Both the position numbers and the translations under genes were made by a program. Of a stretch of DNA of 64,000 nt, positions 39,156 through 45,197 are shown piece after piece. A model generated the notes under the pieces. It was not told the DNA's origin. It worked only from the letters and a program-made list of their open reading frames with translations, and did not search any database. How positions within the stretch are numbered: position 1 is the stretch's first letter; the number at the start of each line of letters is the position of its first letter. This DNA is from Pseudoxanthomonas kaohsiungensis (GTDB lineage: Bacteria > Pseudomonadota > Gammaproteobacteria > Xanthomonadales > Xanthomonadaceae). The DNA lies in NCBI RefSeq assembly GCF_010211765.1, contig NZ_PDWO01000008.1, forward strand, positions 1 to 64,000. The letters run 5' to 3'.

Positions 39156-40042
39156 AAGTCGCGGCATGCAAGTATCCGGTCGGACGCCCCGCCGACTTCG
39201 CAGAGTTCGCGGACAAGCAGCGGCGCCTGCTCGGCGAGGCGGCCAGCCTGGGAGCGCGCGCGGCCGTGTTGCCGGAATACCTGTCGCTGGAGCTGGCGGC
39301 GCTGTTCCCGCCGGCGGTCCATGCCGACCTTCGGGCCTCGCTGGCCGCCATCCAGTCCCTGCGCGGTGACTGGCTCGAGCTGTTCGCCGGCATCGCGCGC
39401 GACACCGGCATGTACGTGGTCGCCGGAAGTTTCCTGCTCGCGCAGGCCGGGGGCCGCTATCGCAACCGCAGCGACCTGTTCGCGCCCGGGGGCGGCCACC
39501 TGTGGCAGGACAAGCTGCAGTTGACCGGCTTCGAGAAGGCGGCCGGCGTGATCGAGGGCGGTGACGCGCTGAAAGTGGCGGAGATCGACGGCGTCCGCTG
39601 CGGGATCTCCGTCTGCTACGACAGCGAGTTCCCGCTGCCGGTGCGCGCGCAATACGAAGCGGGGGCGCGGTTGCTGCTGGTGCCCAGTTGCACCGACACC
39701 GCCGCCGGCGCCACCCGGGTCCAGGTCGGCTGCCTGGCGCGCGCGCTGGAGAACCGGATCTTCGTCGTCCAGGCGGTGACGGCCGGCCGTGCACCCTGGA
39801 GTCCGGCCCTGGACGAGAACACGGGCGAGGCCACCGTGTACGCGCCGATGGATGCGGGCTTTCCCGACGACGGCATCCTCGCGCGGACGCGCGGCGACGA
39901 GGCCTGGGCCATCGCCGAACTCGATTTCGGTCTGCTCGAAGCCACGCGCGGGCGCGCCCAGGTCGCCAACGACCGCGACTGGTCCGGGCAGCACGCACCG
40001 TCGCTGGTACGGGCGCGCGTGGAGGGTTTCGAGCCGTTGTAG
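39152..40042 (+). CDS. Carbon-nitrogen hydrolase (nitrilase superfamily)
   Basis: The 296-residue protein has the nitrilase Glu-Lys-Cys triad: Glu42 (VLPEYLSLE), Lys121 (WQDKLQLTGFE) and Cys155 (ISVCYDSEFPL). It resembles amidohydrolases paired with acetyltransferases; the exact amide substrate is not known. The TAG stop (40040-40042) falls in the GTAG of the REP element that begins at 40038. Confidence 0.9.
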   Translation: MKVAACKYPVGRPADFAEFADKQRRLLGEAASLGARAAVLPEYLSLELAALFPPAVHADLRASLAAIQSLRGDWLELFAGIARDTGMYVVAGSFLLAQAGGRYRNRSDLFAPGGGHLWQDKLQLTGFEKAAGVIEGGDALKVAEIDGVRCGISVCYDSEFPLPVRAQYEAGARLLLVPSCTDTAAGATRVQVGCLARALENRIFVVQAVTAGRAPWSPALDENTGEATVYAPMDAGFPDDGILARTRGDEAWAIAELDFGLLEATRGRAQVANDRDWSGQHAPSLVRARVEGFEPL

Positions 40043-40135
40043 GAGCCCATCCTCATGGGCGACCCGACGCCGTCGGTACAGGCGACGTACTCATGGGTCC
40101 GACGGCGCGGTCGCCCATGAGGATGGGCTCCTACG
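40038..40135. repeat. Paired GTAG-type REP element 6, between convergent genes
   Basis: TGTAGGAGCCCATCCTCATG and GCCCATGAGGATGGGCTCCTAC form the two ends; the centre differs from the copies near hinT. The TAG of the left GTAG is the stop of the hydrolase gene, and the right CTA is, on the minus strand, the TAG stop of the PAP2 gene. The element therefore fills the gap between two convergent genes exactly. Confidence 0.85.
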
Positions 40136-42026: not shown

Positions 42027-43388
42027 TTACGGAGCCGGTTCCGGCGGCCCGGGTTTCGCCGCATCGACCGTCAGTGCCAGCACGCCGTCGGCCAGGCGCG
42101 CCTGCAGGCGGTCGCCGGGAGCGGCCTGCGCCACCAACCGGACCAGGCGGCCGTCGTCCTCGCGGGCCAGGATCGCGTAACCGCGCGCGACCGTGGCCAG
42201 CGGGCTGCAGGCCTCCAGCGAGCGGGCCAGCGCCCGCAGCTTCAGCGTGTCGCGTTGCAGGGTGCGGGCGATGGCCGCCTGCGGGCGCGCCCGGAGCCGT
42301 TGCAGGCGGGCCTGCAGCAGCGCGAGCCGTCGCCCGGGATGGTGCGCGCGCAGCACCGCCTCGCCGTGGCGCAGGCGCGCGCCACGCTGCTGCTGGCGCT
42401 CGCGCCACGCGGCATGCAGCCTGCGCAGCAGGTCGCCGTGGCGCTGCCGCAGCAGGCGCAGCCTGGCCTGTGGCGACTGCGCCTGCAGGCGCAGCTCCGC
42501 GCGGTCGGCGCGTTGCATTGCCTGGCGCAACCGCTGGCGTTGCAGCGAGAGCAGGCGCGCGGCGATCGCGGCAAGGCGTGCCTGCAGGTCGCGCTGTTCG
42601 GGCACGAGCAGTTCGGCCGCCACCGAGGGCGTGGGTGCGCGTACGTCGGCGGCGAAGTCGGCCAGGGTGAAGTCGGTTTCGTGCCCCACCGCGGAGACCA
42701 CCGGCACCGGCGAGGCGGCGATCGCGCGCACCAGGCGTTCGTCGTTGAACGCCCACAGGTCTTCCAGCGAGCCGCCACCGCGCGCCAGCAGCACCGCATC
42801 GTAACGGCCGCTGTTGCCGGCGCGGCGCAGCAGGTCGGTGATCTGCGCCGCGGCGGTCTCGCCCTGGACCAGGCTGGGCAGGACGTCCACTTCCAGCAGC
42901 GGGAAGCGGCGCGACAGCACGCTGAGCACGTCGCGTACGGCCGCACCGGTGGGCGAGGTGATCACCGCCAGGCGGCGTACCCACGCCGGCAGCGGGCGCT
43001 TGCGCGCGGCATCGAACAGGCCCTCGGCCTCTAGCCGGGCCTTCAGCGCATCGAAGGCGCGGCGCAGGGCGCCTTCGCCGGCTTCCTCCATGTGGTCCAG
43101 CACCAGCTGGTAGTCGCCGCGCGCTTCATACAGGGTGAGCCGGCCCCGGCCGAGCACCTTCAGCCCTTCGCGCGGCACGAACTTCAACCATTGGCTCTTG
43201 GGCTTGAACATCGCGCAGCGCACCTGTGCGCGCGCATCCTTCAGGGTGAAGTACAGGTGCCCGGAACCCGGGCGGGTGATGTTGCCAAGCTCGCCTTCGA
43301 CCCAGACCAGCGGGAACGCGCTCTCCAGCAGGTCGCGCGCCAGCGTGTTGAGCTGGCTGGGGGTCAGGACGGGATTCTGCTCGGGCAT
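42027..43388 (-). CDS. xseA: Exodeoxyribonuclease VII large subunit
   Basis: XseA forms the nuclease subunit with XseB. The 453-residue protein has an N-terminal OB fold ([36 protein letters not shown]), a catalytic core ([53 protein letters not shown]) and a long coiled-coil C-terminus (about 270-410). Start ATG 43388 is fixed by homology. No xseB is in the window. About 70 bp upstream lies a hexanucleotide tract. Confidence 0.95.
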
Positions 43389-43458
43389 CGGGACGCGCGG
43401 GGCGGCGGGACAGGATAGCGCGGGCGGGGTGCGGGTGTGCGCTGGCGGGGGAATCGCC

Positions 43459-43550
43459 GACCGCAACCGCGACCGCAACCGCAACCGCAACCGCAACCGC
43501 AACCGCAACCGCAACCGCAACCGCAACCGCAACCGCAACCGCAACCGCAA
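43459..43550 (+). repeat. Hexanucleotide microsatellite (AACCGC)15
   Basis: Fifteen consecutive units of AACCGC, the first and third being GACCGC, followed by AA. It lies 71-162 bp upstream of the xseA start. Such pure short tandem repeats are prone to slipped-strand changes. Confidence 0.95.
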
Positions 43551-43566
43551 AGGCGCGTGGCGTCGG

Positions 43567-43718
43567 CTTCGGGAGGAGTCCGCCTTCACATGGGGGCAGG
43601 GTCCGCCCCTTCGGGACGACATCCTGTCTTTACGAAGGGTCGTGGCACATCCATGTGCCACTCGGACCCTGCCCCCATGCGAAGGCGGCCTTCGGGTGCG
43701 TCCGGGTTTGTGCCTTCG
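43567..43718 (+). repeat. Structured repeat element, copy 1 (three-way-junction fold)
   Basis: The outer stem pairs 43580-43605 with 43663-43688 (26 bp, one mismatch; contains CATGGGGGCAGGGTCCG). Inside lie two hairpins: CCCTTCG/CGAAGGG around a loop containing GACGACATCCTGTC, and the perfect GTGGCACAT/ATGTGCCAC (43642-43661). Flanks CTTCGGGAGGAGTCCGCC and TGTGCCTTCG match copy 2. No protein-coding reading is convincing. Confidence 0.85.
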
Positions 43719-43860
43719 ATTGGCTTCCTCCAGGGAATTGGCGGGCGCCTCGTGCTGCGCTTGAAGAGGCACGGGCCGGAGAACTACATGTCGACCAGCG
43801 GGTTGCGCGCTCGCTGGGCGGTGGGAGCTTCGGCTCATGGCCCTCGCTTCTGCTGCGTTA
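43719..43860. other. Spacer between the two inverted structured repeats
   Basis: 142 bp without a supported gene. It contains short direct and inverted motifs but no clear coding or promoter signal. Together with the two repeat copies it forms one 446-bp inverted-repeat block. Confidence 0.4.
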
Positions 43861-44012
43861 CGAAGGCACAGGCGCTCGATGAGCCCGAAGGCCGTCGTTG
43901 CCATGGGGTATGGCCCAAGTGGCACATGGATGTGCCACGGCCCTTCGTAAAGACAGGATGTCGTCCCGAAGGGTGGGCCATACCCCATGGCAACGGCGGA
44001 CTCCCCCCGAAG
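43861..44012 (-). repeat. Structured repeat element, copy 2 (inverted)
   Basis: On the minus strand this matches copy 1 through the core (CTTCGGGACGACATCCTGTC, then TTTACGAAGGG, then GTGGCACATCCATGTGCCAC) with nearly no change. The outer stem has different sequence (CCATGGGGTATGGCCCA) yet is again self-complementary over 26 bp with one mismatch. Flanking CTTCGGGGGGAGTCCGCC and TGTGCCTTCG agree with copy 1. It lies 37 bp beyond the queG stop. Confidence 0.85.
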
Positions 44013-44049
44013 CGATCGCCTTTGACTCTGGACGTCGCTGGCCTTTCGC

Positions 44050-45144
44050 TCAGCCAGACACGCCATGCCGCGCCCGCGCCCAGGCGACGTGCTCGCGCAC
44101 CAGTGGCGAGGGGTCGTCGCGGCGCGATTCCAGCGCGGCCAACACTTCCGGCGTGGAAGGCGCGTTGCCCAGCGCCACGGCCAGGTTGCGCAGCCAGCGC
44201 TCGTGGCCGCTGCGGCGTATCGGGCTGCCCTCGGTGCGGCGCAGGAACTCGTCCTCGTCCCACGCGAACAGCTGCGGCAGCGATGCGGTATCCAGGTCGT
44301 TGCGCGCGCGGAAGTCGGGCTCGTCGGAGCGCCTGGCGAACTTGTTCCAGGGGCAGACAAGCTGGCAGTCGTCGCAGCCGAAGATGCGGTTGCCGATCGC
44401 CGGGCGCAGTTCTTGCGGGATCGGGCCCTCGTGCTCGATGGTCAGGTAGGCGATGCAGCGGCGTGCGTCGAGCCGGTAGGGGGCCACGATCGCCTGCGTG
44501 GGGCAGATGTCGATGCAGCGCGTGCAGGTGCCGCAGTGGGCGCTGGCCGGTTCGTCGACCGGCAGCGGCAGGTCCACGTAGATCTCGCCCAGGAAGAACC
44601 AGGAACCGCCATCGCGGTCGATCAGGCAGGTGTGCTTGCCGATCCAGCCCAGGCCAGCGTTGCGGCCCAGCGCGCGTTCCAGCACCGGCGCCGAGTCGAC
44701 GAACACGCGATGGCCGAACGGACCGATCTCCTGCTGCACGCGCATGGCCAGCTTCTGCAGGCGGTTGCGCATGAGCTTGTGGTAGTCGCGCCCCAGCGCA
44801 TAGCGGGCGACGTAGGCACGCGCGCCGTCGGCCAGCGTTTCCCATGCTTCCTCGTCGTCGCGACGGCCGTAGTCCAGGCCCACCGAGATCACGCGCAGCG
44901 TGCCCGGGACCAGCTCGTGCGGCCGCGAGCGCTTCTGCCCGTGCGCGGCCATCCAGTCCATCGTCCCGTACAGGCCCTCGGACAGCCAGTCGCGCAGGTG
45001 CGCCTCGTCCGCGCCCAGCTCGATCCCGGCGATGCCGCAGCGCTGGAAGCCGAGCCCGGCGGCCAGCTCGCGCACGCGCCGGGCGATCGTTGCCGGATCG
45101 GCGCCGGCGCCCACGGGCACCGGAGGAGGCGGGACGGGATCCAT
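44050..45144 (-). CDS. queG: Epoxyqueuosine reductase
   Basis: QueG is the cobalamin and iron-sulfur enzyme that makes queuosine in tRNA. The 364-residue protein has the DUF1730 N-terminal domain, two [4Fe-4S] motifs ([16 protein letters not shown] and [13 protein letters not shown]), and a C-terminal HEAT-like end ([20 protein letters not shown]). ATG 45144 has a TATAAT box 6 nt before it; a longer in-frame reading through the nnr gene on the other strand is rejected. Confidence 0.95.
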
Positions 45145-45150
45145 GGCGGA

Positions 45151-45156
45151 ATTATA
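45151..45156 (-). promoter_or_regulatory. -10 box implying leaderless queG transcript
   Basis: On the minus strand TATAAT is followed by TCCGCC and then ATG 45144, so transcription would begin at or next to the start codon. The hexamer matches the consensus fully. Confidence 0.6.
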
Positions 45157-45197
45157 GGGATGGCGCGCGCCGGCGCCTGCGCCAGGCGCGGCGCGGC

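Follow-up and report, generated by a model that had tools for sequence, protein, structure and literature searches.

The sponge RNAs CsrB/CsrC and RsmX/Y/Z are each encoded by a single gene that has its own promoter, and the TwoAYGGAY RNA of Rfam has two hairpins with AYGGAY loops. Xanthomonas campestris, the host of RsmU, belongs to the same bacterial family as Pseudoxanthomonas. RsmU is described as a 3'-UTR RNA of XC1332 (predicted ComEA) that binds RsmA and carries four GGA motifs, its binding in vitro persisting after all four had been changed (PMC7694677). In RsmZ, the hexaloop ANGGAX and the pentaloop AGGAX both occur; on the basis of RsmE structures, an ANGGAX hexaloop placed directly on a stem has been proposed as the high-affinity site, in which the presence of N matters, not its identity, and in which binding is weaker when N is absent (PMC4005645). 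SELEX with CsrA gave the consensus RUACARGGAUGU, in most cases on hairpins with no more than 4 contiguous pairs, and the bridging range reported for a CsrA dimer is 10–63 nt (PMC7652899). As for dispersed repeats, REPs are described as palindromes that lie between convergent or tandem genes and are often paired head to head, and the GTAG/CGTC REPs as tagged single hairpins of 20–40 bp with loops varying between families (PMC3733652). In Coxiella burnetii, QMITE1 and QMITE2 are reported as families of about 50 dispersed non-autonomous copies each, with three derived small RNAs (PMC5896051).

The element described here was found in a window of 64,000 nucleotides (positions 1–64000 of contig C82) in the source genome of Pseudoxanthomonas kaohsiungensis (G000; 3.76 Mb, 85 contigs). 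Its fold, strand, covariation, fixed loops, pair layout and gene context, and its presence or absence at one orthologous site, were computed. Like CsrB/CsrC and RsmX/Y/Z, it has several GGA hairpin loops on one strand of each RNA (PMC4005645); unlike them, it is found as at least 82 dispersed matches, mostly paired, each copy having two sites and a long stem. It is similar to RsmU in its GGA motifs and as a 3'-region RNA for which RsmA binding is predicted, whereas RsmU, by its description, is set apart by its single locus and its four GGA motifs (PMC7694677). With the dimers of GTAG/CGTC REPs, as presented in the same survey as above, the element shares dispersal, head-to-head pairing and a convergent or tandem gene context, but its loops are fixed, its stem of about 25 bp bears two inner hairpins, and no link to a RAYT was found (PMC3733652). 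It is like QMITE1/QMITE2 in its many dispersed, plausibly non-autonomous copies with a proposed RNA connection, but CsrA, RsmA and GGA occur 0 times in the main text of that report (PMC5896051). Rfam gave no family match, known sponge families included, either for the window at gathering scores or for 43400–44060 at E ≤ 10, the seven matches at the latter threshold (six microRNA families and psaA RNA) being far below the cut-offs; also the TwoAYGGAY RNA, in spite of its likeness in having two hairpins, was not reported by either scan. The first-pass annotation, made from the letters of the window, did not recognise the element as a described family, and no description of it was found by these scans or among the best-matching papers of a literature search. 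By analogy, the element would act like an Rsm sponge module, yet by the features tested it stands outside the described sponge families and the GTAG/CGTC REPs. We consider it probable, at roughly 60%, that it is a dispersed repeat, once or still mobile, whose RNA carries two predicted RsmA-binding hairpins; the earlier suggestion of a non-autonomous mobile element is plausibly right.

The inverted pair between xseA and queG

Two inverted copies lie at 43567–44012, where the first-pass annotation had placed them, and, compared in inverted orientation over the 152 bp that it assigned to each, have 81% identity (43607–43696 and 43884–43973 are 88% complementary). Both copies contain the hairpins it had read as CCCTTCG/CGAAGGG and GTGGCACAT/ATGTGCCAC, and their outer arms do pair: in copy 1, 29 nt do so at 93%, and with G.U allowed 27 of 28 positions are paired in either copy. 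The arms of copy 1 are unlike those of copy 2 in sequence. A structured element was correctly recognised; what had been missed are the folding strand, the divergent pair as the unit and the two fixed CsrA/RsmA-like loops. In fact, the strand used was the complement of the informative one, and the supposedly unpaired GACGACATCCTGTC loop is, on the folding strand, a small hairpin, GAC-AGGAU-GUC, the stem of which has 5 or 6 bp in other copies.

On its RNA strand, copy 1 occupies 43578–43691 (minus) and scores 110.3 bits with the covariance model R1 (opposite strand 36.6), and copy 2 occupies 43889–44001 (plus) and scores 123 bits (opposite strand 41.3); both belong to R1's own alignment, and with the model R2, built without them, they score 60.5 and 70.2 bits, respectively. 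In copy 1, all on the minus strand, the 5' outer arm at 43663–43691 pairs as an inverted repeat (93%) with the 3' outer arm at 43577–43605. Hairpin 1, with the loop CA-UGGA-UG (ANGGAU), is at 43642–43661, as identified by pattern and descriptor scan; hairpin 2, whose outer stem CCCUUCG/CGAAGGG was found by pattern, is at 43607–43639, and its tip GAC-AGGAU-GUC, seen in the sequence and in the descriptor scan, at 43618–43628. In copy 2, on the plus strand, the descriptor scan placed the 5' and 3' outer arms at 43889–43916 and 43974–44001; hairpin 1, again with the loop CA-UGGA-UG, and hairpin 2 were found by pattern at 43919–43938 and 43941–43973, and the tip GAC-AGGAU-GUC, by sequence and descriptor scan, at 43952–43962. 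The coordinates of the R1 matches define a spacer at 43692–43888, from which the two RNA strands point outward.

The pair is placed between xseA (42030–43388; NCBIfam TIGR00237, 460 bits) and queG (44053–45171, stop codon at 44050; NCBIfam TIGR00276, 493 bits), both on the minus strand. No promoter-like site of the sigma-70 type, the sole promoter type covered, and no terminator-like site was found in 43300–44120. Fifteen tandem repeats of ACCGCA are present at 43460–43550, close to copy 1, and 6-base arrays of the AACTGC, GAAGCC, AGAGGC and AACAGC types adjoin several other copies.

A fold on one strand and its constant loops

The element, about 113 nt long, consists of a GC-rich stem of about 25 bp, a three-way junction and two inner hairpins, and its folds are predicted to be very stable. 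In an alignment of 39 copies, 96.3% of the cells are paired, double changes occur in 33 of 43 pairs, and covariation is 0.460, whereas slid controls do not exceed 0.102; none of 500 shuffles, which ignore relatedness, reached any of the five pairing and covariation measures. Arms failing to covary had been named at the outset as an argument against a structured element; in these 39 copies, the arms covary. On the strand opposite to the one first described, the arm cells comprise 861 Watson-Crick, 57 G.U, 1 A.C and 16 other combinations.

A search blind to the loops, in which both strands were treated alike, covered 226 loci, minus those longer than 9 kb or with N runs, and gave 223 distinct long-armed structures; their G.U-richer strand carried GGA loops in 168 cases, TCC loops in 2 and neither in 19, with 34 ties. 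When 125 stringent copies were oriented by loop, 2769 Watson-Crick, 164 G.U, 5 A.C and 62 other combinations were counted; 107 copies leaned towards G.U and 1 towards A.C (17 ties), and the mean identity of the inner 5' arms was 41%. Since a double-stranded palindrome would give nearly equal numbers of G.U and A.C, the 164 against 5 observed on one strand argue for selection on one single strand. The same counts bear on the idea of a functionless palindrome kept by the DNA copying machinery, by gene conversion or by the correction of quasi-palindromes. Templated correction readily affects inverted arms, and gene conversion between copies could be a source of double changes; such correction, however, leaves G.T and A.C equally by strand and does not explain the fixed loops, and we give this idea hardly any credence.

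In the 201,807 bases of the window and the loci, a structural descriptor found 51 distinct matches; after one mononucleotide shuffle of these bases in 200-base blocks it found 0, a contrast that speaks for the specificity of the descriptor only, since the loci had been fetched because they bear the element. The consensus of a further model, R3, built from 32 diverse copies and used in no search, lacks the second hairpin; the invariant loop columns of the R3 and A1 alignments were not counted, because the 32 rows of R3 had been picked for the two loop motifs.

BLAST with the 152 bp, which demanded no motif, gave 45 matches in the source genome, corresponding to 44 copies, a number that makes the element more than a product of chance. 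In all 44, hairpin 1 carries CA-N-GGA-X-G and hairpin 2 carries CA(N)GGA-X-G, although this conservation is partly a product of copy finding, as the locus queries included the loops. Among the 223 loop-blind structures, two CA(N)GGAXG motifs are present in 183, one in 12 and none in 28, the last group including GTAG-type repeat dimers; broken loops, with GGC or GAGA replacing GGA, occur in some structures. In the 183, the first motif is CATGGATG (122), CAGGGATG (49), CAGGGACG (4), CAAGGATG (3), CATGGACG (3) or CACGGATG (2), and the second is CAGGACG (65), CAGGATG (57), CAGGGATG (18), CAGGGACG (13), CATGGATG (11), CATGGACG (6) or another sequence (13). Loop position N varies freely and GGA is fixed. 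In 60 sampled copies, the median probability of GGA being unpaired in the predicted ensemble was 1.000 for one loop and 0.998 for the other, with values below 0.5 in 0 and 3 copies, respectively. The stems of hairpin 1 have 6–8 bp; in the 125 stringent copies, the two loops are 26–30 nt apart, and hairpin 2 lacks N in 94.

The source genome has a CsrA-family gene at C1:47152 (94 bits), the sequence of which we take to be the usual CsrA sequence. Two weaker CsrA-family matches are at C77:40009–40161 (46.8 bits) and C77:5027–5185 (31.6 bits). Judged by their letters, both fixed loops match the high-affinity CsrA/RsmA motif. When set against the RsmE sites, as far as these are described, the copies fit, the lower-affinity form without N included (PMC4005645); with respect to the SELEX data reported for CsrA, the motif and the 26–30 nt spacing fit, but the long stems do not (PMC7652899).

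Copies, pairs and neighbouring genes

The model R1, built from the 39 copies, was run on the source genome at E ≤ 0.001, the best 150 of 4338 first-look candidates being scored, and gave at least 100 matches; 18 are weaker opposite-strand matches of strong ones, which leaves at least 82. These lie in at least 49 places (30 pairs, 18 singles and one group of four) and, among the matches listed, 30 of the 31 multi-copy places hold just one inverted pair, divergent and in the same order each time. Of 60 adjacent pairs, 57 are RNA-divergent, 3 tandem and 0 of the reverse, RNA-convergent order; moreover, many BLAST singles have an inverted partner from a more distant subfamily. That partners avoid each other, with the arms of a pair less alike than random, was not supported: arm identity averaged 0.455 between the partners of the 57 divergent pairs and 0.416 between randomly paired copies, and in 1909 of 2000 shuffled pairings the mean was no higher than the observed one. 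An arm identity of 0.9 was reached by none of the 57, but this says little, random pairing being expected to give about 1.4 such cases.

Genes were called on both sides at 46 of the 49 places (3 were dropped) by a simple codon model trained on the window, the calls being rough (queG was extended to 46677). By these calls, the neighbours of the units are convergent in 23 cases, tandem in 20 and divergent in 3, against 5, 34 and 6 of the 45 control gaps in the window. Of 68 gene ends that face a unit, 20 are separated from it by a terminator-like hairpin; in the window control the figure is 4 of 32. Open reading frames cross the xseA–queG locus, yet called genes overlap 0 of the 46 units, and a protein-coding reading of the element was rejected. 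This intergenic position and the very stable folds would also suit a transcript-end structure that blocks exonucleases or transcription, like 3'-end REPs, with no loop-specific protein partner. A barrier of this type, however, needs neither fixed loop bases nor a three-way junction, and terminator-like signals are absent from 43300–44120; we regard it as improbable.

Three features favour the RsmA reading: the fixed bases coincide with those contacted by RsmA, the distance between the loops is suitable for one dimer, and the pairs have the layout described above. Each element RNA would form a long stem and a three-way junction with two hairpins, one with the loop A-N-GGA-U on a stem closed by C-G, the other with A(N)GGA-X; both loops are predicted docking sites for RsmA/CsrA, at a distance that a single RsmA dimer could bridge. 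As the pairs point outward between convergent or tandem genes, read-through from either side would carry one sense element, and the terminators before 20 of the 68 ends suggest that part of the copies would be reached by read-through alone. The most likely action would be the binding of RsmA to 3'-end or intergenic RNA segments: the copies would jointly soak up RsmA, and each would couple its host transcript to the RsmA level. We infer transcription, RsmA binding and titration, as well as a means of copy spread. The stems of 6–8 bp, the hairpin 2 without N and the lack of a promoter-like site at the locus count against the RsmA reading.

A wider proposal, for which we see somewhat less than an even chance, is that a mobile repeat has spread RsmA-binding modules family-wide as direction-free divergent pairs, which would amount to a genome-wide sponge; insertion beside any gene would add exactly one RsmA dimer site to the read-through transcript. 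If true, the RsmA/CsrA pool would be buffered by dozens of scattered copies, beyond one or two sponge genes, a repeat family would have recruited, or would exploit, a global regulator, and a dispersed bacterial repeat would gain a clear protein partner. In addition, hundreds of natural variants, with A.GGA kept and N, X and stem varied, would provide a data set on RsmA recognition.

Mobility, REPs and spread in the family

The gap between queG and the next gene was compared in 17 genomes of the genus, by the presence of a CA.GGA.G hairpin with at least 5 pairs. In the 16 readable ones (G015 ends too soon), the hairpin is present in 7 (G000, the source, G003, G006, G007, G011, G013 and G016) and absent in 9 (G001, G002, G004, G005, G008, G009, G010, G012 and G014, the last with an interrupted queG frame). 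The gaps of G000 and G011 hold divergent pairs of different subfamilies, that of G003 a further copy, partly duplicated, and those of G012 and G005 appear relic-like by eye. In P. koreensis (G004), near-identical copies occur at several sites, the outer ends of its pairs being inverted and of the AGCGTCGGCTCCGG type, with target-site duplications not readable by eye; some element copies are at contig ends.

The presence and absence at queG, the near-identical P. koreensis copies and the copies at contig ends would also be expected of a mobile hairpin of single-stranded DNA, REP- or TIR-like, whose loops are the site of an HUH-type or other transposase and whose likeness to RsmA sites is accidental. 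The head-to-head pairs and the convergent or tandem gene neighbours, both known from descriptions of REPs, agree with this too (PMC3733652); one-strand specificity fits recognition of single-stranded DNA equally well, and the G.U bias of one strand would suit such DNA when folded. On the other hand, a DNA hairpin of this sort gives no reason for a fixed A.GGA with varying N and X, leaves two such loops on different stems in other genera unexplained, and is at odds with the absence of a GTAG tag and of the element from 23 Y1 loci in 14 genomes. We hold it to be unlikely, with a weight that it keeps because mobility and strand bias fit it equally well.

Taken in the strict sense, the earlier suggestion of a REP-like target finds no support: GTAG was not seen by eye at the foot in the aligned ends of 44 and 39 copies, and the element is beside none of the 23 Y1 (RAYT-type) transposase loci found in 14 of the 17 genus genomes. 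Neither does it have the 8–9 bp stem, 4–5 nt loop and CGTC tag of the CGTC REPs; on the opposite strand, many copies do have CGTC after the arm. At three of the 23 loci, a solitary CA.GGA.G hairpin lies close to where the Y1 match ends, and the single model match at these loci (29.8 bits, L257) is a GTAG repeat dimer. L257, from G013, has a Y1 transposase gene with GTAGGAGCCGGTCTTGCCGGCGACC repeat dimers on both sides (within 700–1500 and 1985–2084), an arrangement that resembles an ordinary RAYT accompanied by REPs of its own. A separate repeat family is represented in the window by a GTAG-type REP inverted pair (GTAGGAGCCCATCCTCATGGGCGAC and its reverse) at 40038–40134, between two genes. 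Repeats of the GTAG type (GTAGAGCGGGGCTTGCCCCGCTGCTCT) come after the element, on its spacer side, at two P. koreensis loci, L108 and L111; at L108 they are located between the two pair members.

At E ≤ 1e-4, R1 matched 15 of 17 genus genomes, the source included (two had no match), 3 of 19 genomes from other genera of the family and 0 of 24 from other families of the order. A wider draw at E ≤ 1e-5, with no more than 12 candidates scored per genome, gave matches in at least 81 of 297 genomes and at least 18 of 54 genera of the family. The exact pattern of one subfamily, searched in a named genome collection, was found in Pseudoxanthomonas alone, which NCBI taxonomy places in Lysobacteraceae; the 45 stretches are from P. 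koreensis, P. jiangsuensis, P. broegbernensis and one MAG.

Seven orthologous element pairs of two close species (G003 and G012) were compared on each sequence's own fold, as a count on the consensus fold is biased, no broken pairs being scored there. Among 20 changed pairs, 9 were double changes that kept the pair, 4 single changes that kept it, 6 single changes that broke it in one species and 1 a double change that broke it. Gene conversion between copies could explain the clustering of matched changes. Four of the 8 unpaired changes fall at loop position N, and in one ortholog GGA is shifted.

In three other genera, 30 distinct structures were found, 19 with two motifs and 11 with one (six of these being a different hairpin). 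Their stems are unlike those of the Pseudoxanthomonas element, and in the 19 with two motifs G.U outnumbers A.C by 22 to 3; the loops are here partly selected, since the loci were found with the loop-containing R1, but the different stems are not. At six loci of the genome G019 (L093 at 1165, L227 at 1167, L230 at 1860, L233 at 1172, L236 at 1171 and L239 at 1856), the element is accompanied, at a distance of about 340 nt, by another type of long-armed hairpin, which encloses GGCCGCCC...GGGCGGCC and is perhaps the pair partner of the element in that genus.
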